Positions 7,595 through 46,726 of a stretch of DNA of 61,685 nt are shown here, piece after piece (position 1 is the stretch's first letter; the number at the start of each line of letters is the position of its first letter). The DNA comes from Nostoc sp. FACHB-152 (GTDB lineage Bacteria > Cyanobacteriota > Cyanobacteriia > Cyanobacteriales > Nostocaceae): positions 1 to 61,685 of the forward strand of contig NZ_JACJRV010000040.1 in NCBI RefSeq assembly GCF_014697475.1, read 5' to 3'. The position numbers were made by a program, and so were the translations under genes. The notes below the pieces were generated by a model that made no database searches, was not told the origin of the DNA, and was given only the letters and a program-made list of their open reading frames with translations.

Positions 7595-10500
7595 ATGACT
7601 AACTCTCGCCATCAAAAACGTCAATCTATTACCCGCACCCCTGCGCGTCTGGGGTTGCTGATTTTGGGTCGTGTTGGCATTCCTTTGTTAGGAATTTCGT
7701 TGGTAGGCATTATCGCTGGCTTCTGGCGGTTACAAAGTTTTGTGCAGAAAGAGTTAGCACCGTTAGCCCAACAAAGTCTCACTAATACTATTAACCGTCC
7801 CGTCAAACTGGGACAAGTAAGAAACTTTTCCCTGACAGGGGTGGAGTTTGGGACTTCAACTATTCCGGCAACGCCACAAGACCCAGATAGGGTAGAAATT
7901 GCGGCTGTAGAAGTGGGTTTTAATCCTTGGCAATTGATTTTTAACCGTCAGTTAAAACTAGATGTTACCTTAGTTAACCCCGATTTCTACATCGAACAAG
8001 ACAGACAAGGGCGTTGGGTAACTACCAAAATCTCGCCGCCAAAGAAAGGCGGATTGATTAAAACAGATTTAGATCATCTGCGCTGGCGTAATGCCAAGTT
8101 AGTGCTGGTTCCCCAAAAGAAGGTACTCGGAAAACGAGGCTTTCCAGGGGAAGTAGGTTCTCCGGTGGGGTTTGTTCAACTTCAAGGTTCTGCCCAATTG
8201 CTGGAGAACAACCAACTAATTAAGTTTGATGTTGTGGGAAAGGCACAAAGAGGTGGTAATCTAGCACTTCAAGGAGAAACGCGCCCGAAAACTCAAGTAT
8301 ATGATATGCAGTTGCGCGGACAAGATTTACTCGCTTCTGACGTGACGCGTTTGGTGAAGTTACCTCTGGATATACAAGCAGGTAGAGTCAATGGTGACTT
8401 GCAGATTAAATTAGCACCAGAGCAAGATCCATTACTATATGGCAGTGCGGATTTACAAAAAGTTACTCTGCAAGTTCCCCGTGTACCCCAACTTTTTAGG
8501 AATACTGAAGGCGACATTTATTTTAAAGGTACAGAAGTCCGACTTGACAATGTAACTAGCAACTACGGCAAGATTCCTTTGGTGGCTAAAGGAATTATCG
8601 ATGGTAACGCAGGTTATAAGTTGACAGGCAGAGTCAAGGCAGTAAGTGTAGCAAATGCTCAACAAACCCTCAAGTTAAAACTGCCTGTACCTGTAGCTGG
8701 ACAACTAAAAGCTGATTTGCAACTGACTGGGACTAATACTAAACCTTTTCTTTCCGGTGTAGTTACTACTATCAACACCGCCCGAATTGACAAAATTGAT
8801 TTTAAGACTATTAGCAGTAAGTTTAACTATTCTGCCGATACTTCGCTGCTGACTTTGAGGGATATTCAAGGTACAACGACCTTCGGCGGACAAATCAATG
8901 GTGCTGGCGACATCCAATTGGGAACAACACCTCAACTGGATTTAAATTTTGCGGCTAAGAATGTTTCTGGGGATGCGATCGCCCAACTTTACAATACCAC
9001 TCCAACTTTTAAAATTAGTACTGTCTCCGGCACAGCCTCTTTAACTGGCGCACCTACCAATGTCACAACTTCGATCAGGTGGCAAGCACCCCAAGCAACT
9101 TACCCCGGTACTGGTGAAACTATTGTCGCCCCTGACCGCACTGTATATTTCCGCAATGTGGCGTTGAATGTGGGTGGCGGTGTAGTGCGAGGAACAGGTA
9201 GTTATGCTAATGAGCGTTGGCAAGCTGTCGTTGATAGTGATGGCTTACAAATAGCACGTTTTGTCAACCAAAATCAACTGCAAAATGTCTCCTTGGCAGG
9301 GGCAGAATTTAATGGTCGCTTGATTTTAGCTGGTAGTTCTGCACCATTTAAAATTGCCTCGGTTCGCCCTCAAGGTGCAGCAGTGCAAATTGCTGGCGGG
9401 AGAATTGGTATCACTAGTCTCCAGTTACAAGACCAAACTTTTGCTGCACAGTTAGTAGCCAATAATGTGCGGTTAGGACGTATCCTCAAACAAGCACCCC
9501 CAGCTTTACAAGGTTCATTAGCTGGAACATTCCAAATCGCTGGGAATAGGGAAAATTTCAGCCTCAAAACTCTTCAAGGTACAGGCCAAGCTAACCTCAG
9601 GGTAGCTGGCGGTACAGTCACAGCGACAAACATTCAACTGGCGAATGGTCGCTATAAAGCGCAACTGTTAGCCAGTAATTTGGCGGTGCAAGAACTCACA
9701 CCAAATACACAAAAAATTCGGGGTAGGTTAACTGGTCAGTTTAATGTGGCTGGTTCGGTTGAATCTTTCCAACCACAAAACATCCAAGCCAGTGGACAAG
9801 GGCGGTTGAATGTCGCTGATGGTGTAATTACTGCCTCGAATATCCAAGTTAATAACGGTCGTTATCAAGCCCAACTCCAAGCTAACAATGTGCCAGTGCA
9901 ACGCTTGACCACAGTACCGCCGCAATTCCAAGGGAATTTAACAGGCCAATTTAACGTTGCTGGTTCCGTTGCTGCCTTCCAACCGCAAACCATCCAAGCC
10001 AGTGGACAGGGAAAGTTGAATGTGGCAGGTGGCACAATTACCGCCTCCAATATTCAAGTTAATAACGGTCGTTATCAAGCGCAACTCCAAGCTAATAATG
10101 TACCTTTGCAAAGGTTGGCAGCAGTCCCGCCACAATTCCAAGGAAATTTAACAGGTGAACTGAAAGTTGCTGGTTCCGTCGCCTCTTTTCAACCCCAAAC
10201 CATCCAAGCCAGTGGACAGGGGCGGTTGAATTTGGCAGGTGGTACAGTTACCGCCTCCAATATTCAAGTTAATAACGGTCGCTATCAAGCTGTAGTCGAT
10301 GCGGCTGGTGTGCAATTAACCAAGTTAAATCAACAATTGCGGGGTCAGTTGGGCGGTAGACTCCAAGTAGCTGGGGCGTTGGGTTCAGCGTCATTAGCGA
10401 AACTGAATGCTGCTGGTAGAGTACAGTTATCTCAAGGTTTGCCAGGATTAGAACGACCAATAAATGCCGCGATCGCCTGGAATGGTGAGAAACTAGCAAT

Positions 10501-13459
10501 TAATCAACTTACCGCCCCAGGTTTAAATGTCACAGGCGACATCTTAGCCAACGCCAATAACCCAGGTATCCCCGAAATTACAGCCTTAAATCTCAACGTC
10601 CAAGCCCAGGACTACAATTTGCAACAGTTACCAATTAATCTACCTAATCAGGTGGCTGTAAAAGGTAAGGTAGATTTTAACGGCAGAGTAACTGGTAAGT
10701 TACCTTTACCAAACGTCAGTGGAGACGTTGCCTTACGTAACTTAGTCGTGCAAGACATCGCCTTTGAACCATTGTTAACTGGTAAGATTAATTCTGCCCA
10801 AGGACGCGGCTTAAATCTAAACGTAGCGGGGAATAAAGACCGAATTGCCTTCAACTTGGATGCCAACAATCGACCGCAATCATTCTTAGTAAATTGGCAA
10901 GATGCCTCGGCTACAGGTCAGTTTCAAGGAAACAATGTTGCACTCAATGTGCAGAAATTCCCCCTGCAAATCTTGAATTTATCCACACCACCAGCCCTGC
11001 GTTTAGGAACTGGTACGATAACCGGGTTAATTAGTGGTGATTTGCAAGTTAATCAGCAGACATTGGCAGCTAATGGCAACTTAGCGATCGCCAGTCCCAA
11101 ACTTGGTAGAATCAAAGGCGATCGTTTAACTGCTCAATTCAGCTACGCCAACGGTAAAGCCACACTTACTAAGAGTGAATTTGTTAGAGGTAGCAGTATT
11201 TACGCCTTTGCTGGGACATTAGGGCAAACTTCTGGAACACCACAAATACAAGGCAAACTTAACGTTAGTCAAGGTAACATCCAAGATGTCTTAGCAGTAG
11301 CGCAGATATTTGACATTCAAGACTTTCAGCGTGGTATGTCAGAGCAAGCTTATGGCACAGCCGCAGATTTGACAACATACTCACGGGGGTTACCCAATGA
11401 ACCTTTGTTAGATCAACTCCAGCGATTTTACGAAATTGAAGCCCAGTTAGCCCAGCAGCAACAACAACGGCGTGATTCTACTCCCCTACCAGAACTAGCA
11501 GACTTGCAAGGAAAGTTCAACGCCGAAATTGCTTTAGATACGGCCACAGCTAATGGGTTATCAGTACAATTTGATATTAATGGACAGAACTTTACCTGGG
11601 GTAAGAAAGAAGAAAGCGATCGTTTTTACCAAGCTAAACAAATTATTGCCCAAGGTAACTTTGAAAATGGCGTGTTGCAGTTGCGACCCCTGCGGATTGA
11701 GTTAGAAAATAGCCTGTTAGCCTTTACAGGTAACATCGGTGGTAACGACCAATCAGGCCAGTTACGAGTCATTAATTTTCCCATCGCTTTAATCAATAAC
11801 TTTGTTAAACTCCCAGTTGATATCACAGGTAATCTCAACGCCACAGCAGCGTTAGCAGGCGGTGCAGCCAATCCTCAAGCGCAAGGAGAATTCGACATTA
11901 CAGGCGGAACCCTGAATCAAAAGCCCGTCGAGTCAGCTACAGCCAGCTTCAACTATAGCAACGGACGCTTAAACTTTAGCAGTAATGTTTCAGTTGCTGG
12001 GCCAGAACCAGTTAACATTGTTGGCAGCATACCGTATAAATTACCCTTTGCTACAACCTCACCAGCAAGTAATGAAATTAGTTTAGATGTTCAAATCAGA
12101 GATGAAGGATTAGCACTGTTAAACTTGCTGACTGATCAGGTAGCCTTTGAGAGTGGAGAAGGTAACATTGACCTCACAGTACGTGGCACCTTAGATCAGC
12201 CACAGTTAACTGGTGTTGCTAATGTTAATGATGCTACTTTTGCTGCCCAAGCTTTACCCGGCAAAATCAGAGACGTGCAAGGCCGAGTACAATTCAATTT
12301 TGACCGGATCTTAGTAGATAGTCTCCAAGGCAAGTTTAGTCGAGGCCAAGTTGCTGCCTCTGGCGAACTTCCGATATTCAATAATGGACAAGTGGCTAAT
12401 AATCCTCTCACTGTCGCCCTTGATAAACTCAATTTGAATCTCAAAGGATTGTACCAAGGTGGTACTAGTGGCAAGCTACAAATTACTGGTTCTGCCCTCA
12501 ACCCCATCATTGGTGGTCAAATTAGTGTGTATGATGGTCAGGTTTTACTAGCAGAATCTACCAATACTAATTCTGGTAGCGTGTCACCACTCAAAGCCAA
12601 CAAGCAAGACAAGGCACCAGCAAGAAATAACACCACCAGGTTAAGTAATCTGGAATTAACATTAGGCAACAACATCAAAATTACCCGTGCGCCAATTCTC
12701 AGTTTTCAAGCCGCAGGTAGTCTCAAAGTTAGCGGTTCTTTAGCTGATCCTATACCAGATGGTACAATCCGCTTACAAAAAGGAGGGGTAAATTTATTTA
12801 CAACGCAATTTAATTTAGTGCGTGGTTATAAAAATACAGCTACATTTCGGGCTAGTCAGCCGCGTGACCCTATTTTAGATGTGCAATTATTTGCTAAAGT
12901 GCTGGATGTAGTACAGGGTACAGATTTTACTAGAACGAATATAACAGGTGGATTAGGTGCTTTAGAAAGTGTACGAGTTGAAGCCACAGTCCAAGGTCTG
13001 GCTAGCAAACTCAACGAAAATTTGGAACTTACCAGCAGTCCGTCACGCAGCCAAACAGAAATTGTGGCTTTGTTAGGCGGTGGATTTGTTGATACTCAAG
13101 GGCGTGGTGATAGCACTTTAGGTTTAATTAACATTGCAGGTTCCGCCGTATTTAATAACTTCCAAACTGCTTTTAACCAAATTGGAAATGCTTTTGGACT
13201 GAGTGAATTCCGGGTATTTCCTACTGTCATTTCCGATAATCCGGAAGCGGGAAGAACTAGTTCTACTTTAGAATTAGCCGCAGAAGCTGGGGTTGATATT
13301 TCCACGAAATTCTCTATTTCTAGTATTAAAATTTTGACAGCTAGTGACCCATTCCAATGGGGGATTAATTATCGAATTAATGATGAATTGCGTGTCCGTG
13401 CTTCTACAAATTTAGCTGATGATAGTCGGGCGATTATTGAGTATCAAACTCGATTTTAG
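7595..13459 (+). CDS. tamB: TamB-like translocation and assembly module protein (DUF490)
   Basis: A 1954-residue giant with one N-terminal membrane anchor (about residues 18-45), a long beta-rich middle with AsmA/TamB-like repeats, and a C-terminal DUF490 region ending in QTRF, a terminal aromatic residue typical of partners of outer-membrane Omp85 proteins. TamB-family proteins span the periplasm as a hydrophobic groove and are linked to lipid transport and outer-membrane assembly. Residues about 659-899 contain a 70-residue tandem repeat (see separate entry). No Omp85 gene is adjacent. The ATG at 7595 is chosen because the anchor follows it directly. Family assignment is strong; the exact function in cyanobacteria is inferred. 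Confidence 0.88.
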   Translation: MTNSRHQKRQSITRTPARLGLLILGRVGIPLLGISLVGIIAGFWRLQSFVQKELAPLAQQSLTNTINRPVKLGQVRNFSLTGVEFGTSTIPATPQDPDRVEIAAVEVGFNPWQLIFNRQLKLDVTLVNPDFYIEQDRQGRWVTTKISPPKKGGLIKTDLDHLRWRNAKLVLVPQKKVLGKRGFPGEVGSPVGFVQLQGSAQLLENNQLIKFDVVGKAQRGGNLALQGETRPKTQVYDMQLRGQDLLASDVTRLVKLPLDIQAGRVNGDLQIKLAPEQDPLLYGSADLQKVTLQVPRVPQLFRNTEGDIYFKGTEVRLDNVTSNYGKIPLVAKGIIDGNAGYKLTGRVKAVSVANAQQTLKLKLPVPVAGQLKADLQLTGTNTKPFLSGVVTTINTARIDKIDFKTISSKFNYSADTSLLTLRDIQGTTTFGGQINGAGDIQLGTTPQLDLNFAAKNVSGDAIAQLYNTTPTFKISTVSGTASLTGAPTNVTTSIRWQAPQATYPGTGETIVAPDRTVYFRNVALNVGGGVVRGTGSYANERWQAVVDSDGLQIARFVNQNQLQNVSLAGAEFNGRLILAGSSAPFKIASVRPQGAAVQIAGGRIGITSLQLQDQTFAAQLVANNVRLGRILKQAPPALQGSLAGTFQIAGNRENFSLKTLQGTGQANLRVAGGTVTATNIQLANGRYKAQLLASNLAVQELTPNTQKIRGRLTGQFNVAGSVESFQPQNIQASGQGRLNVADGVITASNIQVNNGRYQAQLQANNVPVQRLTTVPPQFQGNLTGQFNVAGSVAAFQPQTIQASGQGKLNVAGGTITASNIQVNNGRYQAQLQANNVPLQRLAAVPPQFQGNLTGELKVAGSVASFQPQTIQASGQGRLNLAGGTVTASNIQVNNGRYQAVVDAAGVQLTKLNQQLRGQLGGRLQVAGALGSASLAKLNAAGRVQLSQGLPGLERPINAAIAWNGEKLAINQLTAPGLNVTGDILANANNPGIPEITALNLNVQAQDYNLQQLPINLPNQVAVKGKVDFNGRVTGKLPLPNVSGDVALRNLVVQDIAFEPLLTGKINSAQGRGLNLNVAGNKDRIAFNLDANNRPQSFLVNWQDASATGQFQGNNVALNVQKFPLQILNLSTPPALRLGTGTITGLISGDLQVNQQTLAANGNLAIASPKLGRIKGDRLTAQFSYANGKATLTKSEFVRGSSIYAFAGTLGQTSGTPQIQGKLNVSQGNIQDVLAVAQIFDIQDFQRGMSEQAYGTAADLTTYSRGLPNEPLLDQLQRFYEIEAQLAQQQQQRRDSTPLPELADLQGKFNAEIALDTATANGLSVQFDINGQNFTWGKKEESDRFYQAKQIIAQGNFENGVLQLRPLRIELENSLLAFTGNIGGNDQSGQLRVINFPIALINNFVKLPVDITGNLNATAALAGGAANPQAQGEFDITGGTLNQKPVESATASFNYSNGRLNFSSNVSVAGPEPVNIVGSIPYKLPFATTSPASNEISLDVQIRDEGLALLNLLTDQVAFESGEGNIDLTVRGTLDQPQLTGVANVNDATFAAQALPGKIRDVQGRVQFNFDRILVDSLQGKFSRGQVAASGELPIFNNGQVANNPLTVALDKLNLNLKGLYQGGTSGKLQITGSALNPIIGGQISVYDGQVLLAESTNTNSGSVSPLKANKQDKAPARNNTTRLSNLELTLGNNIKITRAPILSFQAAGSLKVSGSLADPIPDGTIRLQKGGVNLFTTQFNLVRGYKNTATFRASQPRDPILDVQLFAKVLDVVQGTDFTRTNITGGLGALESVRVEATVQGLASKLNENLELTSSPSRSQTEIVALLGGGFVDTQGRGDSTLGLINIAGSAVFNNFQTAFNQIGNAFGLSEFRVFPTVISDNPEAGRTSSTLELAAEAGVDISTKFSISSIKILTASDPFQWGINYRINDELRVRASTNLADDSRAIIEYQTRF
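9571..10290 (+). repeat. 210-bp in-frame tandem repeats inside tamB
   Basis: The phrase beginning catccaagccagtggaca occurs at 9781, 9991 and 10201, exactly 210 bp apart. A more diverged copy starts at 9571. Each unit encodes 70 residues with TASNIQVNNGRYQA and FQPQTIQASGQG. The last three copies are close to identical at DNA level, so expansion was recent or is kept uniform by recombination. The fourth unit departs from the pattern after about 10285. Confidence 0.92.
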
Positions 13460-37473: not shown

Positions 37474-38673
37474 TCACTCCGGCAACTTATACTGCCCAAC
37501 AATCCGTTTAGCAAACTCCGGTACGTGCGCCTCCAACTTCTCAGGATGATTCCGCTTCACATACAAGTAATTCCTGGTAAAGTGCGAATCAATCGAGAAC
37601 CGCGCATACTCTAAACCTTTGGGGCCGATTTTATCAATCACCACACCCATCATTTTCGCCACCCACATTGGTAAGGTTACGCCTTTGTCATAAGCCGGAA
37701 TTCCCTGCTGTACGGCTTCTTTTCGGTTACCTTGGGATATCACAGGTTGGGTGTCTATCTGGTCTTGCACCAAGTCCAGCATTTCTTTGCCTGTATCATT
37801 TCTAACTAAAATCCATTGCCAGCCGAAGGGTGCGCCCATGTAGCCAACGACTAAATCGGCTAGGGAGTTGACGTAATCAAAACAACTCATGCAGGAGGGG
37901 GCGAAGACATCTTTCAGTTGATTAGTTTTTAAGCCGAAGAATGGTACTTTCTCAATTGAACCGTCTTCATGCTTGAAGTGAATACGGAAGTCTTGCATGA
38001 ATTCGTAGTGTACTACTGTCTCAGGCGATCGGCTGGTGGTTTCTAAGAATTTTTGCAGTCCGGCGCGGGTGACATTATCTACACAGGGTGTGCCTAGAAC
38101 GTATAACTTTTCTAAACCTAGTTGTTTTTCTACCGCCCTGAGTGCCTGAATTTGGCAACCAACACCAATTACTAATAGTCGCTTCATCCCTGATTTTTCT
38201 ACCTGTTCCAAGATAGAAAGGTTGGGTGAAAGTGTTGGTTTATTGACCCGTGCTGCCAGTATTTCTTCTGGGGTGCGAGCAATTACAGGCATGGGTTGAA
38301 AGCGGTCTTCTTTGGTATTTTGCACACAGACAACGCCTTCAACTAAGCCGCGATTCAGCATTTCTATGGCGATGGTGCTGACGATACCTGTCCATTGTGC
38401 GCCTTCGATGGGTTGCTGTTTCCGTGCTGCCATCATGTCTTGATGCACACCAAAGTAGAGTTCATCGAGGTTGCCGAGATTCCGAGAACGGCTGTGGCTT
38501 TGTTCTTCTAAGGTGTCTATCTGCTGGTTGATAAAAGCGCAGGCTTCCTTGACGTAGTGAATATAGTATGTATCACATAGTCCGCATTCACTGCACAGTT
38601 CTTTGGCAGGGCGACGGCTACCGGGTTTTAAGGCTTTGGCTTTTGTATGCTTGTTAGAATCAACAGAGGTCAT
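37474..38673 (-). CDS. bciB: Divinyl chlorophyllide 8-vinyl-reductase, ferredoxin-type (BciB)
   Basis: A 399-residue protein of the coenzyme F420 hydrogenase beta-subunit family. CSECGLC (Cys27, 30, 33) and SCMSC supply iron-sulphur ligands, GVGCQIQALR and GTPCVDNVTR are family stretches, and VGYMGAPFGWQW fits the cyanobacterial group typified by Synechocystis Slr1923. That enzyme reduces the 8-vinyl group of divinyl chlorophyllide using ferredoxin and FAD. Related proteins include plant 7-hydroxymethyl chlorophyll a reductase, but the cyanobacterial ones are vinyl reductases. Its stop codon lies 2 bp from the right end of the neighbouring repeat unit, so that insertion just missed the gene. 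Confidence 0.87.
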   Translation of the reverse strand: MTSVDSNKHTKAKALKPGSRRPAKELCSECGLCDTYYIHYVKEACAFINQQIDTLEEQSHSRSRNLGNLDELYFGVHQDMMAARKQQPIEGAQWTGIVSTIAIEMLNRGLVEGVVCVQNTKEDRFQPMPVIARTPEEILAARVNKPTLSPNLSILEQVEKSGMKRLLVIGVGCQIQALRAVEKQLGLEKLYVLGTPCVDNVTRAGLQKFLETTSRSPETVVHYEFMQDFRIHFKHEDGSIEKVPFFGLKTNQLKDVFAPSCMSCFDYVNSLADLVVGYMGAPFGWQWILVRNDTGKEMLDLVQDQIDTQPVISQGNRKEAVQQGIPAYDKGVTLPMWVAKMMGVVIDKIGPKGLEYARFSIDSHFTRNYLYVKRNHPEKLEAHVPEFAKRIVGQYKLPE

Positions 38674-38725
38674 ATAAATGTTTGTTTTATCCAGGAATCC
38701 TTTTACTACAATACCTTTACAGCTT

Positions 38726-38929
38726 ATGAACTTAACTATAGAGATTGAAAAAGAAGAGGACGGACGGTTTTTGGCTGAGGTGGTTAATTTTCCTGGTGTG
38801 CTGGCTTATGGAAACACAAAAGAAGAAGCTGTTGCCAGAGTTCAAGCATTAGCTTTGTGGGTTCTAGCTGATAAGTTGGAAGATGGGAAGCTGATGTTAA
38901 CACGCCCTACTGAATATTTTCTGAATTAA
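38726..38929 (+). CDS. HicB-like orphan antitoxin
   Basis: A 67-residue HicB-type domain protein: TIEIEKEEDGRFLAEVVNFPGV followed by AYGNTKEEAVARVQALAL, the usual partial RNase-H-like fold. No HicA toxin frame is present on either side, and there is no added DNA-binding domain. It may be a solitary regulator or remnant of a toxin-antitoxin pair. The ATG at 38726 is used; the frame extends to an ATG at 38678, but those 16 residues are unlike the family. Confidence 0.75.
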   Translation: MNLTIEIEKEEDGRFLAEVVNFPGVLAYGNTKEEAVARVQALALWVLADKLEDGKLMLTRPTEYFLN

Positions 38930-39088
38930 AATATTCTTCATTTTACGGCAACTTTACTTGATTTACACTTTATAGAGCTTATAGGGCAAATGATTATCCA
39001 AGTAAAAGCAGACGCAGAATAAAGTGAAATTACAACTAGCAGGATTAAATTAAGTTTAGTAGATAGTTTTGAGAGGTTTACAAATCTG

Positions 39089-39550
39089 ATGACTGCGCCT
39101 CAATCAAAAGTTTTTACCAACTTGCGTCTTTACGACCAAGATTTTTATTTGTGGATAGAGACAACTGCTAAACAACTAAAAGAAGGCAGATTTTCTGATG
39201 TTGATTTAGAAAATCTTATCGAAGAGATTGAAAGCATGGGGAGAAGTGAAAAACGCGTACTTGAGAGTAATTTAGTTGTTCTATTAATGCATCTATTAAA
39301 ATACAAATATCAGCCAGAAAAACGCTCTAATAGTTGGAAAGTAACTATTAGAGAACATCGCCGCAGATTGACAAGGACTTTTAAGGATAGTCCTAGTTTA
39401 AAACCATATTTTCAAGAAGTTTTTACTGATTGTTATCAAGATGCCAGAAAGCAAGCCAGTGATGAAACTGGTTTGTCCGTTGATATTTTTCCCGTAGAAT
39501 CTCCATTTACTATGGATGAATGTTTAGATGAAGATTTTTTACCGGATTAA
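39089..39550 (+). CDS. DUF29 family protein
   Basis: A 153-residue DUF29 protein with the family pattern: YDQDFYLWIETTAKQLKEGRF, then VDLENLIEEIESMGRSEKR, LLMHLLKYKYQPEKRSNSW and a C-terminal FPVESPFTMDECLDEDFLP. These are abundant in cyanobacteria and have no established biochemical role. Helical, cytosolic, no cysteines at conserved sites. It has no operon partner. The ATG at 39089 opens the conserved N-terminus. Confidence 0.9.
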   Translation: MTAPQSKVFTNLRLYDQDFYLWIETTAKQLKEGRFSDVDLENLIEEIESMGRSEKRVLESNLVVLLMHLLKYKYQPEKRSNSWKVTIREHRRRLTRTFKDSPSLKPYFQEVFTDCYQDARKQASDETGLSVDIFPVESPFTMDECLDEDFLPD

Positions 39551-40040
39551 GTAGGTCGTCGTGAATATTTATCGTCAGGATAAAGCAGGAGGCAAGAGGG
39601 GAGAGACTTTTAGCTTAGTTAATTTTTCGTAACATAGTTAGGTTTTCCTCACCGACTTACTTAGTTGACTATTGATATTTACCGCAGCTTAAATGGCGAT
39701 GTCATGACCTAAAATCTACTTACCACTACTTGAGCTTGGGCATTAATTACATCAATAAATTCTTTTAATCTTTACATAAATCTATACTTAACTGAGTTCT
39801 TCTACTTCTCTTAAGATACAAGGTTGGGTTGAGGAACTAAATCTAACATCAAAATATCTTGGCATTGTTGGGTTTCACTTCGTTCCACCTAACCTTCATT
39901 TATTTTTCTCTAATAACTTTATACAAAATTTAAAAGCAAGACTTAATATTTCATTGATTATTACGAGGTGGTAACAAGATTTCTTAGCTTACTCTTAAGT
40001 AGTTTCATTTTGTAAATAAATTGACACGCGAGAAAGTTAA
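39551..40040. other. Intergenic region with a dispersed repeat copy
   Basis: 490 bases. A TTGGGTTTCACTTCGTTCCACCTAACC element near 39868 is an inverted relative of that at 15669. The remainder is AT-rich with no gene that I can support. The promoter for the gene at 40041 should be in the last 100 bases. Confidence 0.5.
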
Positions 40041-40487
40041 ATGCCAAGTATCTTTCAAAGTACGAGAAGACTTATATCAATACTATTGGTGACTTTGCTT
40101 GTTGTAACAAGTACATTAACAATCTTTCCAACTTCAGCTAGAGCAGAAGGAAATTTAATAGAAGGAAGTCTTATAAAAGGTGATGGAGATGTAGTTTTGT
40201 TCAAATGTGAGTCAAATTGTGGAAATCTTATGACTTGGGCTGTGGGTGCTGTTTCTGGTAGTGCAATCACACTTATGGCTACAGGTGACACTGCAACTTT
40301 AGCCGCAGTTGCTACAGCAGTTGGACACCTAGCTGTAACAACGGTTGCTCCATTAGCAACAGTAGCACCAACCTTGGCAGCAGCACCAGTATTGGTTCCA
40401 GTTGCAGCCACAGCAGCAGCTGGCTATGGTGCTTATAAGTTATGGAAATTTGTTAGCCACGACGACACTACAAAACCTGAAAGCTAA
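40041..40487 (+). CDS. Secreted or membrane-inserted Ala/Val-rich protein of unknown function
   Basis: A 148-residue protein with no named family. Residues 1-35 are a signal peptide (RRLISILLVTLLVVTS, ending PTSARA). A short polar part with Cys56 and Cys60 follows, then hydrophobic stretches at about 63-82 and 85-137 made of Ala, Val, Thr and Pro. The end of this region, APVLVPVAATAAAGYGAYKL, shows the P-x12-Y-G pattern also found twice in the WD40-J protein encoded 680 bp downstream. A charged tail (SHDDTTKPES) closes it. The context and the shared module suggest a partnership with that protein at a membrane; this is inference. Confidence 0.75.
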   Translation: MPSIFQSTRRLISILLVTLLVVTSTLTIFPTSARAEGNLIEGSLIKGDGDVVLFKCESNCGNLMTWAVGAVSGSAITLMATGDTATLAAVATAVGHLAVTTVAPLATVAPTLAAAPVLVPVAATAAAGYGAYKLWKFVSHDDTTKPES

Positions 40488-40640
40488 CATAACTAACTGT
40501 TCATACTATTTGCTGGACTTGATTGTTATCAATTGCAGGACTGACTTACAACTAATGGAGAAATAAACCACAGTGAATACTAAGAAAACTCCCAAATGAG
40601 ATTTTGAAACAATTTATACGTAGTCCTATATTGGTTTATT

Positions 40641-40668
40641 AAGCCTCCCATAATACTATGGGAGGCTT
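40641..40668. terminator. Perfect hairpin after the secreted-protein gene
   Basis: AAGCCTCCCATA (40641-40652) and TATGGGAGGCTT (40657-40668) form a 12-bp stem with loop ATAC. The downstream bases (CTGTTCG) lack a T run, while on the minus strand AATAAACC follows; it could end transcription or be another RNA element. Confidence 0.6.
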
Positions 40669-40854
40669 CTGTTCGACATAACTACCTGAGTTTCAAGCTT
40701 TGGAGGCAAGTGCCTATCCTTGGTTTAATGTTCATACTGAGTGAATTTAATGATTGTAACTTTGCGTGTTTAGCGAAAATTACTGATGTCCTTGGTGGTT
40801 TTATTTTTTAATATTAAACAGTTGTATCGAGCTACTACGATATTTTTAAATCTT

Positions 40855-41064
40855 ATGCAACTAATACAAAACGCAAAAAGAATAATGTCACTATGTTTAA
40901 TGACGCTGTTTGTATTGACTAGCAGCATCATGATTTTACCAAATTCTGCTTGGGCAGCACCAGCTAACGAACTTCAATCTGAAAATATTGTCGAAGTAAT
41001 GATAGGTTTTGTAGGTCTTATTATAGGTTTCTTTCTAGGAATCTTTTCTCAACATTTAAATTAA
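40855..41064 (+). CDS. Small exported single-helix protein
   Basis: A 69-residue protein of unknown function. Its signal peptide (KRIMSLCLMTLFVLTSSIMI, ending PNSAWA) is visibly related to that of the gene at 40041: both read basic-x2-S-x3-x-TL-x-V-x-TS-x4-[FL]P-x-SA-x-A. After a short polar stretch (APANELQSE) one hydrophobic helix follows (about 45-65, with GFVGLIIGFFLG). The ATG at 40855 starts the signal peptide; an ATG at 40786 would add 23 unlikely residues. It lies between the secreted protein and the WD40-J gene, all on one strand. Confidence 0.6.
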   Translation: MQLIQNAKRIMSLCLMTLFVLTSSIMILPNSAWAAPANELQSENIVEVMIGFVGLIIGFFLGIFSQHLN

Positions 41065-41165
41065 TTAGTTTATCTTTTTTGCTTTTATATAAATATATTC
41101 AACTTCTACACTCAATCTAGATGATATTTCTTAGCTGAAAAGTCAATTATAAATAAGTAGTATTA

Positions 41166-42887
41166 GTGACACAAAACTCTAAAACGGGTGCAGCATTCAT
41201 CGCTGGAGGAAGCCTAGCAGGTGCAGGTGTTTCTGCGTCAGTTGGCGGAATGGGGTTAGCAGGCGGATTTGGTGCTATTGGAATTGGAACTGCGCCTGTT
41301 GTTGGTGCTGGTGCTGTGGCTGGTGCGGCTGTTTATGGTGCTTTTCAAGCCGTAGCTGCGGGAGATGTGGCGGCTTTTGGTGCAATGGGAATTGGTGCTG
41401 TTGGTGGTGCTGGCTTTTCTGGCGTTGTTGGTGGTATGGGAATAGTTGCACCTAAAATTGGTTTAGCGTTTGGTATTGGAACTGTACCAATGGCTGGCGT
41501 GGGTGCAGTTTTAGGACTGGCGGCTTATGGTTTTGCTAAGTTGTTAGATGAATCTGAGGTTAAAGAAACTCCTGCACAGCTTTTTGAACGGATGGAAGAA
41601 AAAGTTTTGCAGATGGATTACTATAACGCTGCTGTTATAGAGTTAGGTTTATTGTTATCTGGTGAGGATCTCAACCAAAAATTTGCTGCTTTGGAGGTTG
41701 AGGATGAGTTACAAGCACTTAAGGCTGAATTTGCTAGTGCGAAGACTGAACAAGAAACTGTAACTTCCAACCTTCAGCTTCCTGAAACTTGGAAATGTGT
41801 CAAAACTCTTAAAGGTCATACTGCAAAAGTTAATGCGATCGCAATCACTCCTGATGGTAATACTTTAGTTAGTGGTAGTGATGACAGACAAATTAATCTG
41901 TGGAATCTAAAAACTGGAAAGTGGCTTCATACTTTCTCTGGTCAAGCAGAGGCGGTTCTATCTCTTGCTATCAGTTCTGATGGAAAACAGATTGTTAGTG
42001 GTTGTGTTGACCGCAAAATTAGCACTTGGCAATTGGAGAAAAAACAATTTTTGCGGACATTTTTTTATTCCAACTCACCCTACAGTCATAATGGTTTTGT
42101 AAATTCAGTAGTATTTAGCCCTGATGGTAGATTTCTTGCCAGTGGTAGTGCTGATAAAACTATCAAAATTTGGGGAGGCTATACAGGCAATTTAAAACTT
42201 GCTTTGAGTGGGCATACAGATGCAGTTTTATCTGTTGCTATTAGTCCTGATAGTAAAATTTTGGCAAGTGGAAGTGTTGATAAAACTATCAGGCTGTGGG
42301 ACTGCACAACTTGGAAACCACTTGAGATTTTTACTCAACATTTGGCTGCAATCAATACAGTTGTTATTAGTTCTGATGGTCATACTCTGATTAGCGGTAG
42401 TACCGACACTACCATCAAGCTGTGGAATCTCTATACAAAAGAATTAATTTGTACTTTGACTGGACACACAGAAGCAGTTTCATCTGTTGCTGTTAGTTCT
42501 AATGGAACAATCTTAGCTAGTAGCAGTCTTAGCACCATCAAACTCTGGCATATCCCAACAGGGAATTTATTACATACTCTTGCTGGTTGTAGCCCTGTCG
42601 TCTTCACTCCTGATGGCAAGATGTTGGTAAGTGGTGGTAACGGCGGTACTATTAAAATTTGGAGTCTGCAAGGTCTAAATGAGTTGAATCTCGATTCTTT
42701 ACTGCATCAGGAATGGTGGGAAGTTTTAGGTGTAGATCCAAATACTCAACCTCAAGATGTCAAGCTTGCCTACTTTCAATTAGCTAGACAATATCATCCT
42801 GATATTAATAGGTCTGCAAACGCTAAAGCGTCAATGCAACTAATTAACAAAGCTTATCAACAATTCCAAGGGCAACTGAAGTTTTGA
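41166..42887 (+). CDS. Gly/Ala-rich membrane region - WD40 propeller - J-domain protein
   Basis: A 573-residue fusion. Residues about 8-127 are hydrophobic and Gly/Ala-rich, made of two related units (23-62 and 85-126), each with P-x12-Y-G. A helical linker (132-200) leads to seven WD40 blades (about 210-508), each ending in I-x-[LIT]-W, which should form one closed propeller. The C-terminus (514-573) is a J domain with HPD at 544-546 (RQYHPDIN), so it should stimulate an Hsp70 (DnaK). The plain reading is a membrane-attached chaperone-recruiting scaffold; a pore-forming effector is an alternative. The frame opens at a GTG (41166) without a good ribosome binding site, so the start is unsure. 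It is third in a cassette with two exported proteins. Confidence 0.85.
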   Translation: MTQNSKTGAAFIAGGSLAGAGVSASVGGMGLAGGFGAIGIGTAPVVGAGAVAGAAVYGAFQAVAAGDVAAFGAMGIGAVGGAGFSGVVGGMGIVAPKIGLAFGIGTVPMAGVGAVLGLAAYGFAKLLDESEVKETPAQLFERMEEKVLQMDYYNAAVIELGLLLSGEDLNQKFAALEVEDELQALKAEFASAKTEQETVTSNLQLPETWKCVKTLKGHTAKVNAIAITPDGNTLVSGSDDRQINLWNLKTGKWLHTFSGQAEAVLSLAISSDGKQIVSGCVDRKISTWQLEKKQFLRTFFYSNSPYSHNGFVNSVVFSPDGRFLASGSADKTIKIWGGYTGNLKLALSGHTDAVLSVAISPDSKILASGSVDKTIRLWDCTTWKPLEIFTQHLAAINTVVISSDGHTLISGSTDTTIKLWNLYTKELICTLTGHTEAVSSVAVSSNGTILASSSLSTIKLWHIPTGNLLHTLAGCSPVVFTPDGKMLVSGGNGGTIKIWSLQGLNELNLDSLLHQEWWEVLGVDPNTQPQDVKLAYFQLARQYHPDINRSANAKASMQLINKAYQQFQGQLKF

Positions 42888-43581
42888 TGAATGCGCGATC
42901 GCCTTTCTACTTTAATTCTACAAATTTAGATAATTTATCTTATCTATCTCCAAAGATTGGTGCAATTAAGATTAATTTTTCCTATATCTATACAAGCTAT
43001 TGTTAATTTAAATTTCTACAAATATTGAGTATTTACACTCATTTTTTTACTTCCTTATTCCTCAAAACTGACTAAAGTGTATGACAGCTACATCTTTAGG
43101 ACTATTGACATTTTAAGTTTGTAAATAAATATGTTGCAGATTTTGAAAAAAAGTTATAAATTATTAATTTATGGGGGGATAGCTAAATTTTTAGTTGCAA
43201 AAACTAAAAACCCATACGTAAATATACTGAAATCTATTGAAGCTTTACATCAACATAAAATAGCTAATGAGATATGTTTTAGTTTGGTAAAAGAAGTTCC
43301 TGACTTTTAAACGGGAATACTAATAATCTAAAAATATATTTCATGTCGCTGTTTTATGCATTCTTTTGATTGCTGAAGGTGAAAAACAGATGATTGCAAT
43401 TCACCGCCAAAATAATAGTAAGTAATCTATTTACGTTAACTGCTAATTTTGTTTACTAAACTCATAACAAAATTAATTGCATAATAAATGAAATAAATGC
43501 TCTTTGTTATGATGAGGATAGCAGCAAAAAAATAAGGAGCATCTACCACCAATCTACACCCTAAATGGAGCTTTTTTAGCA
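42888..43581. other. AT-rich intergenic region before the invertase pair
   Basis: 694 very AT-rich bases. A 59-codon frame at 43131-43310 is listed separately. The last 60 bases carry AAGGAGC and TGGAGC ahead of the invertase ATG. I see no repeats or hairpins of note. Confidence 0.5.
43131..43310 (+). CDS. Possible small protein (59 residues)
   Basis: An ATG-initiated frame reading MLQILKKSYKLLIYGGIAKF, then LVAKTKNPYVNILKSIEALH and QHKIANEICFSLVKEVPDF. The amino-acid mix is protein-like (basic amphipathic start, few rare residues), but there is no good ribosome binding site and I know no relative. It could be the remnant of a longer gene. Confidence 0.3.
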   Translation: MLQILKKSYKLLIYGGIAKFLVAKTKNPYVNILKSIEALHQHKIANEICFSLVKEVPDF

Positions 43582-45027
43582 ATGCAAATAGAGAATTTAG
43601 TAATGGATGAAAGTACAGAAAAAGCGGCGTGGGAAGCATTAGAAAAATCGATTCTCTACTATCGAGGGCGGCCGATTGGTACAGTAGCAGCCTATGATAA
43701 TTCTGTAGAAGCACTCAATTATGATCAGGTTTTTATTCGAGATTTTGTTTCTTCTGCCTTAATTTTTTTGGCAAAAGGTAGAACAGATATCGTTCGTAAT
43801 TTTTTGGAAGAAACTCTAAAGTTACAACCTAAAGAAAGGCAATTAGATGCTTACAAACCAGGTAGAGGTTTAATTCCTGCTAGCTTCAAAGTTGTAAATA
43901 TTAATGGTGAAGAATATTTAGAAGCTGATTTTGGCGAACACGCGATCGCCAGAGTTACGCCTGTTGATTCTTGTCTGTGGTGGATTATTTTATTACGGGC
44001 TTATGTTGTCGCTACAAAAGATTTTTCTATAGCCTATCAACCGGAATTCCAAACTGGTATTCGGTTGATTATGGAAATTTGTTTGGCGAATCGCTTTGAT
44101 ATGTACCCAACTTTATTAGTTCCAGACGGTGCTTGTATGATTGACCGTCGTATGGGTATATATGGTCATCCTCTGGAACTTCAAGTTTTATTTTACACGG
44201 CAATGCGGGCGGCGCGTGAGTTGCTAGTTTGTAATGGCAATCAAGATGTTGTAGCAGCAATTGATAATCGTTTGCCTCTTTTATGCGCTCATATTCGTCA
44301 ACATTATTGGATAGATATTAATCGCTTAAATGCCATTTATCGCTTTAAAAGTGAAGAGTATGGCAAAACGGCTGTGAATCTATTTAACATCTATGTAGAC
44401 TCGATTCCCTATTATGAATTAGATAAATGGCTACCTAGAAAAGGTGGTTATTTAGCAGGTAATGTGGGGCCTTCGCAGTTCGATACTCGGTATTTTGCTT
44501 TGGGCAACTTGATGGCAATTATTTCCGATTTGGCTACTGAAGAACAGTCACAAGCCATCATGACTCTGATTGAAGAAAGATGGGACGATTTAGTAGGAGA
44601 TATGCCTATGAAAATCTGTTTTCCAGCTTTGGAAGGTGAAGAATACAGAATTGTCACTGGATGTGACCCGAAAAATATACCTTGGTCTTATCATAATGCT
44701 GGCAGCTGGCCTGTTTTGATGTGGATGTTAGCCGCCGCCGCTATTAAAACTAATAAAACTAGTTTGGCTAGAAAAGCTGTTGAAATCGCTCAGTCACGTC
44801 TTTGTGAGGACGAATGGCCAGAATATTACGATGGTAAAAAAGGTAGATTAATTGGCAAACAAGCTAGAAAATACCAAACTTGGACTATTGCAGGTTTCTT
44901 ATTAGCTAAGGAACTACTCAATGACTCTTCTCATTTACCTTTGGTAACTTTTGATAAATTAGCTCCAGAGTTGATTTCTAGAGCTTGTGAGTTTGAAATT
45001 GGTAGTGTAAATCCTTATATGTCTTAA
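43582..45027 (+). CDS. Alkaline/neutral invertase, GH100
   Basis: A 481-residue cytosolic invertase of glycoside hydrolase family 100, splitting sucrose to glucose and fructose. Both catalytic residues known from Anabaena InvA occur at the same numbers: the acid Asp188 ([11 protein letters not shown]) and the base Glu414 (DEWPEYYDG). The (alpha/alpha)6 barrel signatures [20 protein letters not shown] and [11 protein letters not shown] are complete. In filamentous cyanobacteria such enzymes feed sucrose carbon to metabolism, including in heterocysts. TGGAGC precedes the ATG. A terminator follows, then a second GH100 gene on the same strand, so this is a tandem duplication with separate transcription. 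Whether it is invA or invB I cannot say. Confidence 0.93.
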
Positions 45028-45334: not shown

Positions 45335-46726
45335 ATGCAAAGCATTGAAGAGCAGGCATGGCAATTACTAGAAGAATCAATTATTTACTATCGAGGTCGT
45401 CCTGTAGGTACTGTAGCTGCCAATGATGTGTCACAATCAGCATTGAATTATGACCATTGTTTTATCCGTGATTTTGCTTCTTCAGCTTTCTTATTTTTGA
45501 TTAAAGGTAGATACGATATTGTCCGTAATTTTTTGGAAGAAACTTTACGTTTACAGCCTAAAAAAGAGAAATTAGATGCTTATACACCTGGTCGTGGTTT
45601 GATACCAGCTAGCTTCAAAGTTGTATCAATAAATGGAAAAGAATATTTAGAATCAGATTTTGGAGAAAATGCGATCGCTAGAGTTACACCTGTTGATTCT
45701 TGTCTCTGGTGGATAATTATCTTACGCGCTTATGTGAAAGCTACAAAAGATTTACAGTTTGCCTTACAACCAGAGTTTCAGGAAGGGATTGCTTTAATTA
45801 TGGAACTTTGTTTGGCAACTCGATTTGATATGTACCCGACGCTATTAGTTCCTGATGGGTCTTGTATGATTCATCGTCGTTTAGGTATTTATGGTTATCC
45901 TTTAGAAATTCAAGCTTTATTTTATGCAGCCTTACGTGCTGCACGTCAGCTATTAGTTTGTGCTGGTGATGAAGAGATTGTTATTGGTATTGATAAACGT
46001 CTACCTCTGTTGCAAAATCACATTCGTCAACATTATTGGATAGATATTAATCGTTTGAATGTTATTTATCGTTTTAAATGTGAAGAATATGGACTAACAG
46101 CCATTAACCTGTTCAATATATATTCTGACTCAATTCCTTATGCGGATTTAGCTGTTTGGCTACCTAAAAATGGCGGTTATTTAGCAGGTAATGTGGGGCC
46201 TTCACAGTTAGATACTCGCTTTTTTTCGTTGGGAAATTTGATGGCTATTATTTCTTCTCTAGTCAGCGAACAGCAATCACAAGCAATTATGACTTTGATT
46301 GAAGCACAGTGGGAAGATTTAGTAGGCACAATGCCAATGAAGATTTGTTTCCCAGCTTTAGAAAAGGAAGAGTATCGAATTTTTACTGGATGTGACCCGA
46401 AAAATATTCCTTGGTCTTATCATAATGCCGGAAATTGGCCGGTTTTGTTGTGGATTTTAACGGCTGCTGCTCAAAAAACAGGCAGAAAAAATATTGCGAA
46501 AAATGCAATGGAATTAGCTGAAAATCGTTTGAGTGAGGATGAATGGCCGGAATATTATGATGGCGCACGGGGAATGTTAATTGGTAGGGAAGCGAGAAGA
46601 TATCAAACCTGGACAATTACTGGTTTTTTGTTGGCTAAAGAACTGATGCTTCATCCTGAGTATTTAGAGTTATTTAGTTTTGAGGAATTTGATGTAGAAA
46701 ATGCTGGGTATGCTTGTAATTTGTAA
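45335..46726 (+). CDS. GH100 invertase-like protein with catalytic Asp replaced by His
   Basis: A 463-residue paralogue of the preceding invertase, collinear over the whole length apart from a shorter N-terminus. The barrel motifs ([31 protein letters not shown]) and the base Glu at about 406 (DEWPEYYDG) are kept. The acid position reads [11 protein letters not shown]: His180 (codon CAT) stands where Asp188 should be. Loss of the general acid should cripple sucrose hydrolysis unless His takes over, so this may be a pseudoenzyme, a sucrose sensor or an enzyme with changed activity. GGAGG at 45321-45325 precedes the ATG. The spacing and terminator before it imply its own promoter. Confidence 0.9.

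Follow-up and report, generated by a model that had tools for sequence, protein, structure and literature searches.

In the window, the 61,685-nt contig NZ_JACJRV010000040.1 of Nostoc sp. FACHB-152 (contig 126 of the 190 contigs in this 8.6 Mb host genome), positions 41166-42887 of the forward strand encode a 573-residue protein with a GTG start. The protein joins a tandem Gly/Ala-rich N-terminal module, here called MOD, to a segment of PspA/Vipp1, a WD40 propeller and a J domain. Judging from its sequence, we tentatively propose, with a confidence that falls a little short of even, that this WD40-J protein is anchored at the membrane and serves as an Hsp70 co-chaperone for the ESCRT-III-type polymers that the Vipp1/PspA family forms. 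We base this on the observed domain content, the conservation of the PspA segment and of the HPD motif, and gene linkage. A first-pass annotation, made from the DNA letters alone, had suspected a role in membrane stress; the PspA/Vipp1 segment and fusions of MOD to PspA back that link independently.

Architecture of the WD40-J protein

The WD40 repeats and J domain, recognised from the start, are both clear in Pfam. Seven stretches match WD40 (PF00400, E-value 3.6e-69) and form a propeller over about residues 209-507 (41790-42686; this and all other parts of the gene are on the forward strand). Residues 517-566 (42714-42863) match DnaJ (PF00226, 9.7e-14) with 51.7 bits against a cut-off of 27.8, and the HPD motif is present. 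As a reference set we used 38 full-length relatives of identical architecture, obtained by profile count in the 78 GTDB loci that contain MOD (loci and genomes are cited by our own L and G numbers). HPD occurs in 36 of them, and the remaining two proteins stop before its position. Named relatives of the window protein are from cyanobacteria, for example Nostoc. In PADLOC-DB 2.0.0, the WD40-J protein matches no core defence model and one HEAT-ARM_XIII model (3.9e-20), which aligns to the WD40 repeats.

Residues 139-198 (41580-41759) correspond, by sequence match and residue conservation, to helices alpha4-alpha5 of PspA/Vipp1, which form the docking segment of ESCRT-III. They match only the C-terminal part of PspA_IM30 in Pfam (positions 160-218, E-value 3.4e-4), and the alpha1-alpha3 hairpin is absent from the protein. 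Against a profile of three PspA-type proteins from the host genome the segment scores 36.0 bits; shuffled versions reach at most 11.1 (1877 scored out of 2000). All 38 relatives carry it. Aligned to the host Vipp1-like protein, it covers about residues 162-217, and across 39 rows (the relatives plus the window protein) the Vipp1 residues F168, R170, M171, E172, F197, E209, L210, L213 and K214 are kept without exception and L200 is kept in 36. The stretch directly after the segment has no majority residues in the consensus of alignment A2 (see below). Vipp1 that has lost alpha5/6 forms neither rings nor filaments, and its self-assembly is severely inhibited by the F197K/L200K exchange (PMC8281802). 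Since the WD40-J protein has neither alpha0 nor the alpha1-alpha3 hairpin, the published mechanism predicts that it does not polymerise by itself.

MOD consists of units of about 60 residues, each closed in the WD40-J protein by a P-x12-YG motif. Unit 1 spans about residues 8-66 (41187-41363), with P44 and Y57, and unit 2 about residues 72-130 (41379-41555), with P108 and Y121. Both are delimited by module alignments, hydropathy and the scarcity of charged residues, and unit 2 also by its identity to unit 1 (20 of 57 positions, reached by 2 of 2000 shuffles). Alignment A2 comprises 52 sequences, namely the window protein, 34 of 46 tail-bearing proteins and 17 of 33 stand-alone MOD proteins; a smaller alignment, A1, holds 10 hand-picked rows. 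In A2, 90 of the 105 YG pairs within the first 160 residues have the P-x12-YG spacing. Residues 1-124 contain only 3 charged residues and have a windowed hydropathy of about 1.0-1.8, which makes membrane insertion of MOD likely. The WD40-J protein is probably membrane-associated. No model in Pfam, NCBIfam or PADLOC-DB 2.0.0 and no significant match in PHROGs was found for MOD; its best match among PDB sequences (E-value 0.034) is regarded as chance.

These parts suggest how the protein could act. The tandem MOD, with Gly/Ala-rich hydrophobic helices predicted at low confidence, would place it in or on the membrane. The alpha4-alpha5 segment, perhaps kept from a MOD-Vipp1 ancestor, could dock on the alpha1-alpha2/3 hairpin of Vipp1, PspA or MOD-PspA subunits, following the alpha5 contact published for neighbouring subunits of Vipp1 rings. 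The WD40 propeller may bind a further partner or sense a signal, and the J domain with its HPD motif would recruit DnaK to disassemble or rebuild the polymers. The precedent for this last step is Chlamydomonas CDJ2, which hands VIPP1 over to HSP70B to be assembled and disassembled (PMC10602608). E. coli DnaK can stand in for HSP70B (PMC10602608, PMC6882379), and Synechocystis DnaK2 and DnaK3 interact with IM30 (PMC6882379).

MOD proteins, PspA hairpins and nuclease partners

At an E-value of 1e-6 or better, MOD is found in 44 of the 386 genomes drawn from the phylum. Of its 78 GTDB loci, 76 are labelled cyanobacterial. The two others (L104, L119) are half-modules in one Verrucomicrobiales and one Thiotrichaceae metagenome-assembled genome, attributable to transfer or contamination. 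One MOD query against 72,556 plasmid records returned nothing. The module occurs alone, before a complete PspA/Vipp1, before the PspA hairpin only, and before the PspA tail and WD40-J. The host genome encodes a second copy on contig 143, a 373-residue MOD-PspA (L002) in which an alpha0-like start precedes MOD and the PspA hairpin follows it. This protein matches PF04012 over positions 10-217 (9.5e-38), with the hairpin, alpha4 and alpha5 all present, and has a weak GajB match (0.003) in PADLOC-DB 2.0.0. The model of a protein 97% identical to it (L092) has a confident PspA part and an unfolded MOD part; its best Foldseek match is Vipp1 8qbw (E-value 1.1e-10, 54% identity), with template modelling (TM) scores of only 0.36 and 0.59.

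PspA-hairpin genes lie within 4.5 kb of 10 of the 38 WD40-J genes. Eight of these ten loci encode the hairpin only, and complete PspA genes occur at L057 and L058. The hairpin-only genes, together with the alpha4-alpha5 segment in WD40-J, look like an ESCRT-III protein split into complementary halves. We also observed, upstream of WD40-J at L066, L072, L077, L080-L082, L087, L093, L105 and L110, proteins of 239-284 residues with tandem PspA hairpins and no MOD; in several of these proteins a short DELQxLKE-like sequence separates the hairpins.

Stand-alone MOD is directly followed by a small nuclease-type gene in 27 of 33 GTDB loci (L042-L119 range), of which 25 were found by pattern, one (L058) by eye and one (L061) as a fragment. 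L047, L070, L100, L101 and L115 have no such partner, and L073 leaves only 129 nt of room. The partner is an HNH protein at 17 loci and PD-(D/E)xK-like at 10. Among the 25 pattern-found pairs, 14 overlap by 1 or 4 nt; the gap of -68 at L095 is an artefact of calling open reading frames (ORFs) from the first start. Except for the L061 fragment, both kinds of nuclease begin with a similar motif of the PNPLQKLVRGxIRDLIN type, predicted to be amphipathic, with a hydrophobic moment of 0.51-0.58 compared with 0.57 for alpha0 of Vipp1. The one HNH partner examined in Pfam matches HNH_5 and HNH, and in PADLOC-DB 2.0.0 the HNH partner matches only generic HNH nuclease models. The other type matches nothing in PDB (6 aligned rows) or Pfam (one protein). 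We take it to be PD-(D/E)xK-like from its GRID...E(V/L)K pattern and from one weak Cas4b match in PADLOC.

HNH genes of the same kind are also present within 4.5 kb of 12 of the 38 WD40-J genes (none at the other 26) and follow MOD-PspA-hairpin genes at L056 and L084. In the host genome no HNH gene with this N-terminal motif was found at an E-value of 0.01, the PD-(D/E)xK-like type not having been searched there. A viral version occurs on the Mu-like phage contig IMGVR_UViG_2506783054_000001 (L175:3776-4506), where a half-MOD gene overlaps an HNH gene of the same type. This contig also encodes a phage transposase, a transcriptional regulator and a DNA methyltransferase.

Exported-type neighbours and the flanks of the locus

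Upstream of the WD40-J gene, on the same forward strand, lie an ORF for an exported-type protein of 148 residues (40041-40487) and an exported-type or membrane ORF of 92 residues, possibly shorter from an internal ATG (40786-41064). The first-pass annotation had joined these two and WD40-J into one cassette, on the grounds that the P-x12-YG motif recurs in the 148-residue protein and suggests assembly of the proteins in a membrane. The three reading frames are real, and the motif is exact in the 148-residue protein (P116, Y129) as well as twice in WD40-J. It holds up as a module within WD40-J and fails as a link between proteins. The 148-residue protein has one YG and several prolines, and a proline falls at the right spacing in 5.9% of shuffles. 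The window has 55 stop-to-stop frames of 100 codons or more, and the motif occurs in 6 of them, WD40-J and the 148-residue protein included. It is kept in 5 of the 9 aligned members of the 148-residue family (alignment A4, 9 of 19 distinct ORFs, window included) and in 8 of the 19 ORFs when fragments are included. A profile-profile comparison of this family with MOD (hhalign) aligns 19 columns at 43% probability and leaves out the proline. Given the shuffle rate, the patchy retention and this short alignment, the motif is no link between the exported protein and WD40-J, and its occurrence in the exported protein can be explained by composition.

No significant Pfam or NCBIfam family was found for the 148-residue protein, which has a weak phage-tail match in PHROGs (E-value 0.0038). 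The 92-residue ORF has no significant match in Pfam, PHROGs or NCBIfam and, by eye, no P-x12-YG in its translation; it resembles the 148-residue family largely through a signal-peptide-like start. The TcdA/TcdB-pore (0.005) and phage-tail matches of MOD-like and 148-residue proteins are weak, and we put them down to composition.

The survey of gene neighbourhoods likewise did not bear out that the three genes stay together. Among 148 genomes sampled from the order, 4 have relatives of the 148-residue protein; of 192 sampled from the family, 17 do, and 12 of these 17 have no MOD gene within 1.5 kb of it. In G535 such relatives occur at four places, and in G058 the relative lies 322 kb away from WD40-J. 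Its traces are found at 4 of the 38 full-length WD40-J loci (L071, L079, L096, L097), and only the L071 copy is intact and has the motif. At L096 (Nostoc spongiaeforme) and at L165 and L166 (same genus) the exported ORF is truncated to 38 codons, counted from its first start, and extends into the start of WD40-J; the WD40-J frame at L165 is likewise short. Signal-peptide-like starts suggest that the exported proteins are in another compartment than the J domain. On the distribution we reject a conserved three-gene cassette, although the exported protein is a recurrent neighbour. With this distribution and no shared module, we judge neither upstream ORF to be part of the system; they are probably neighbours and not subunits.

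MOD also lies near a 148-family gene at L160 (G535) and L167 (G507), the latter a stand-alone MOD with an HNH partner. L041 and L169 have hydrophobic tails resembling that of the 148-residue family; in L041 the tail is fused to an NCEHF-type N-terminal part, which we presume to be LRAT-like.

The locus is bounded on the left by an FrhB-type gene (37474-38673, minus strand) and on the right by a GH100 invertase (43582-45027). Between them are UPF0150-like and DUF29 genes, the two exported-type ORFs and WD40-J. WD40-J is flanked by an FrhB-type gene and an invertase in many relatives too. A second GH100-invertase-like gene (45335-46726) is similar to the first and forms a tandem pair with it, and a 1954-codon ORF occupies 7595-13459. 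A perfect 12-nt inverted repeat (40641-40668, no strand assigned), terminator-like and without a T run, separates the 148-residue gene from the rest; the terminator scan called no terminator there, and matches of the promoter and terminator scan are no commoner than by chance. Searches with genes from the 78 GTDB loci recognised no remnants of MOD, PspA hairpin or nuclease in 38674-41165 or 42888-43581. The only matches were to the UPF0150-like, DUF29 and 148-family genes and to a few short pieces of genes that are flanking or unassigned.

Competing readings and known systems

Several results weigh against a co-chaperone role. The Pfam score of the PspA segment, 20.7, is under the gathering cut-off of 33.9, and ten other WD40-J rows fall under the PspA threshold. 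They comprise eight distinct proteins (L019, L020, L022, L024, L027, L029, L032, L146), two of which are repeated as L145 and L148; the F-x-R core and the EE[LF] end are nevertheless visible in the eight. AlphaFold2 leaves the N-terminal 210 residues of WD40-J unfolded (mean predicted local distance difference test score, pLDDT, 38) and likewise MOD in the MOD-PspA fusion (pLDDT 25-48). With models of such low confidence and hydropathy of only 1.0-1.8, a membrane hairpin in MOD is no more than putative. At 18 of the 38 WD40-J loci, genes for a module, a nuclease or a PspA hairpin are all absent within 4.5 kb (at L091, one of the 18, just 17 nt of sequence are available upstream), so a partner would need to be encoded elsewhere. 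In the host genome a hairpin query finds only MOD-PspA and two ordinary PspA/Vipp1 genes, all on other contigs. In 5 of the 17 family genomes (G000, G507, G535, G556, G574), 1.5 kb or less separates a MOD gene from a gene of the 148-residue family; the vicinity is thus recurrent, although in two of the five the exported ORF is only truncated. Finally, membrane maintenance alone does not account for the nuclease link, and this keeps a conflict system under consideration.

In a conflict or defence system, which the first-pass annotation had raised and which we consider possible but rather unlikely, MOD would be a membrane platform holding the nuclease, the PspA and WD40-J forms would be sensors, controllers or a membrane-repair arm, and phage membrane injury would release or activate the nuclease. 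The tight pairing of stand-alone MOD with nuclease genes (27 of 33 loci, 14 of 25 with overlap), the HNH genes near 12 of the 38 WD40-J genes and the pair on the Mu-like phage contig argue for this. However, no PADLOC model matches MOD, the nucleases match generic HNH models and one weak Cas4b, HNH genes are missing from 26 WD40-J loci and, in the motif-bearing form, from the host genome, and the plasmid search was empty. Unlikely, too, is a broader scheme in which MOD would be a common platform for exchangeable tethered nucleases and partly split PspA polymers, with a DnaK-using WD40-J arm that arms or disarms them and phages carrying a minimal version. A toxin-antitoxin-like arrangement, in which MOD would keep the nuclease sequestered at the membrane and WD40-J would have taken up the module for an unrelated purpose, would account for the order MOD then nuclease, the start/stop overlaps and the exchangeable nuclease types behind a common N-terminal motif. 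It appears highly improbable, as HNH genes also occur after MOD-PspA-hairpin genes and beside WD40-J, which suggests one system.

The PspA segment could instead be just a relic or spacer and WD40-J a membrane-anchored J-protein with another client, picked by the propeller. WD40 domains commonly bind partners, and no PspA gene stands beside WD40-J in the window. In cyanobacteria, DnaJ domains are often associated with the neighbours of WD40 genes (PMC5587647). Conservation of the polymer-contact residues in 39 of 39 rows, with no majority residues in the stretch that follows, would be unexpected for a relic, and we regard this explanation as quite unlikely. As to one membrane complex of WD40-J and the two exported proteins via a common P-x12-YG module, the genes are adjacent in the window, 148-family traces occur at four WD40-J loci, and the recurrent vicinity in five family genomes raised our estimate slightly, to a level that is still very improbable. 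The profile comparison, the retention of the motif in 5 of 9 aligned members, the 322-kb separation in G058, the truncated ORFs beside WD40-J at L096, L165 and L166 and the signal-peptide-like starts all stand against it. We therefore keep the co-chaperone for Vipp1/PspA polymers as our working proposal.

Its single parts are known, and we have not seen MOD or the combination in print. Zorya and Kiwa couple a membrane component to a DNA-acting component, and the MOD-nuclease pair has a similar logic, although no PADLOC model matches MOD. The literature seen, including the available parts of a phage shock protein (PSP) survey (PMC11237479) and a survey of prokaryotic WD40 proteins (PMC5587647), contains neither MOD nor the MOD-PspA tail-WD40-J combination; in the former, counts for DnaJ, WD40 and nuclease are all 0. 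Cyanobacterial WD40 proteins in the latter resemble ours in their WD40 repeats and DnaJ association, but MOD and the PspA segment are not mentioned in the available text. With Vipp1/IM30 and PspA (PF04012, ESCRT-III superfamily), the WD40-J protein shares alpha4-alpha5 and the F197/L200-type contacts, and its MOD-PspA paralogue is a full match; unlike them, WD40-J is without alpha0 and the alpha1-alpha3 hairpin.

Thylakoid membranes cannot do without Vipp1, and algal Hsp70 and CDJ2 remodel its polymers. A cyanobacterial counterpart of CDJ2 is reportedly lacking, since a 2013 survey, judging from Synechocystis, found no homologue (PMC3720927). An ESCRT-III docking segment joined to a J domain makes this gap directly testable in filamentous cyanobacteria. 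If true, the split of ESCRT-III and the tight pairing of MOD with nucleases would connect membrane remodelling with chaperones, and possibly with phage defence, in a way that was not expected. The WD40-J protein has MOD, a WD40 propeller and an ESCRT-III segment, none of which is mentioned in the description of CDJ2 as a J-domain protein (PMC10602608); like CDJ2, it has a J domain and a proposed Vipp1-binding part, and would feed Vipp1 polymers to Hsp70/DnaK.

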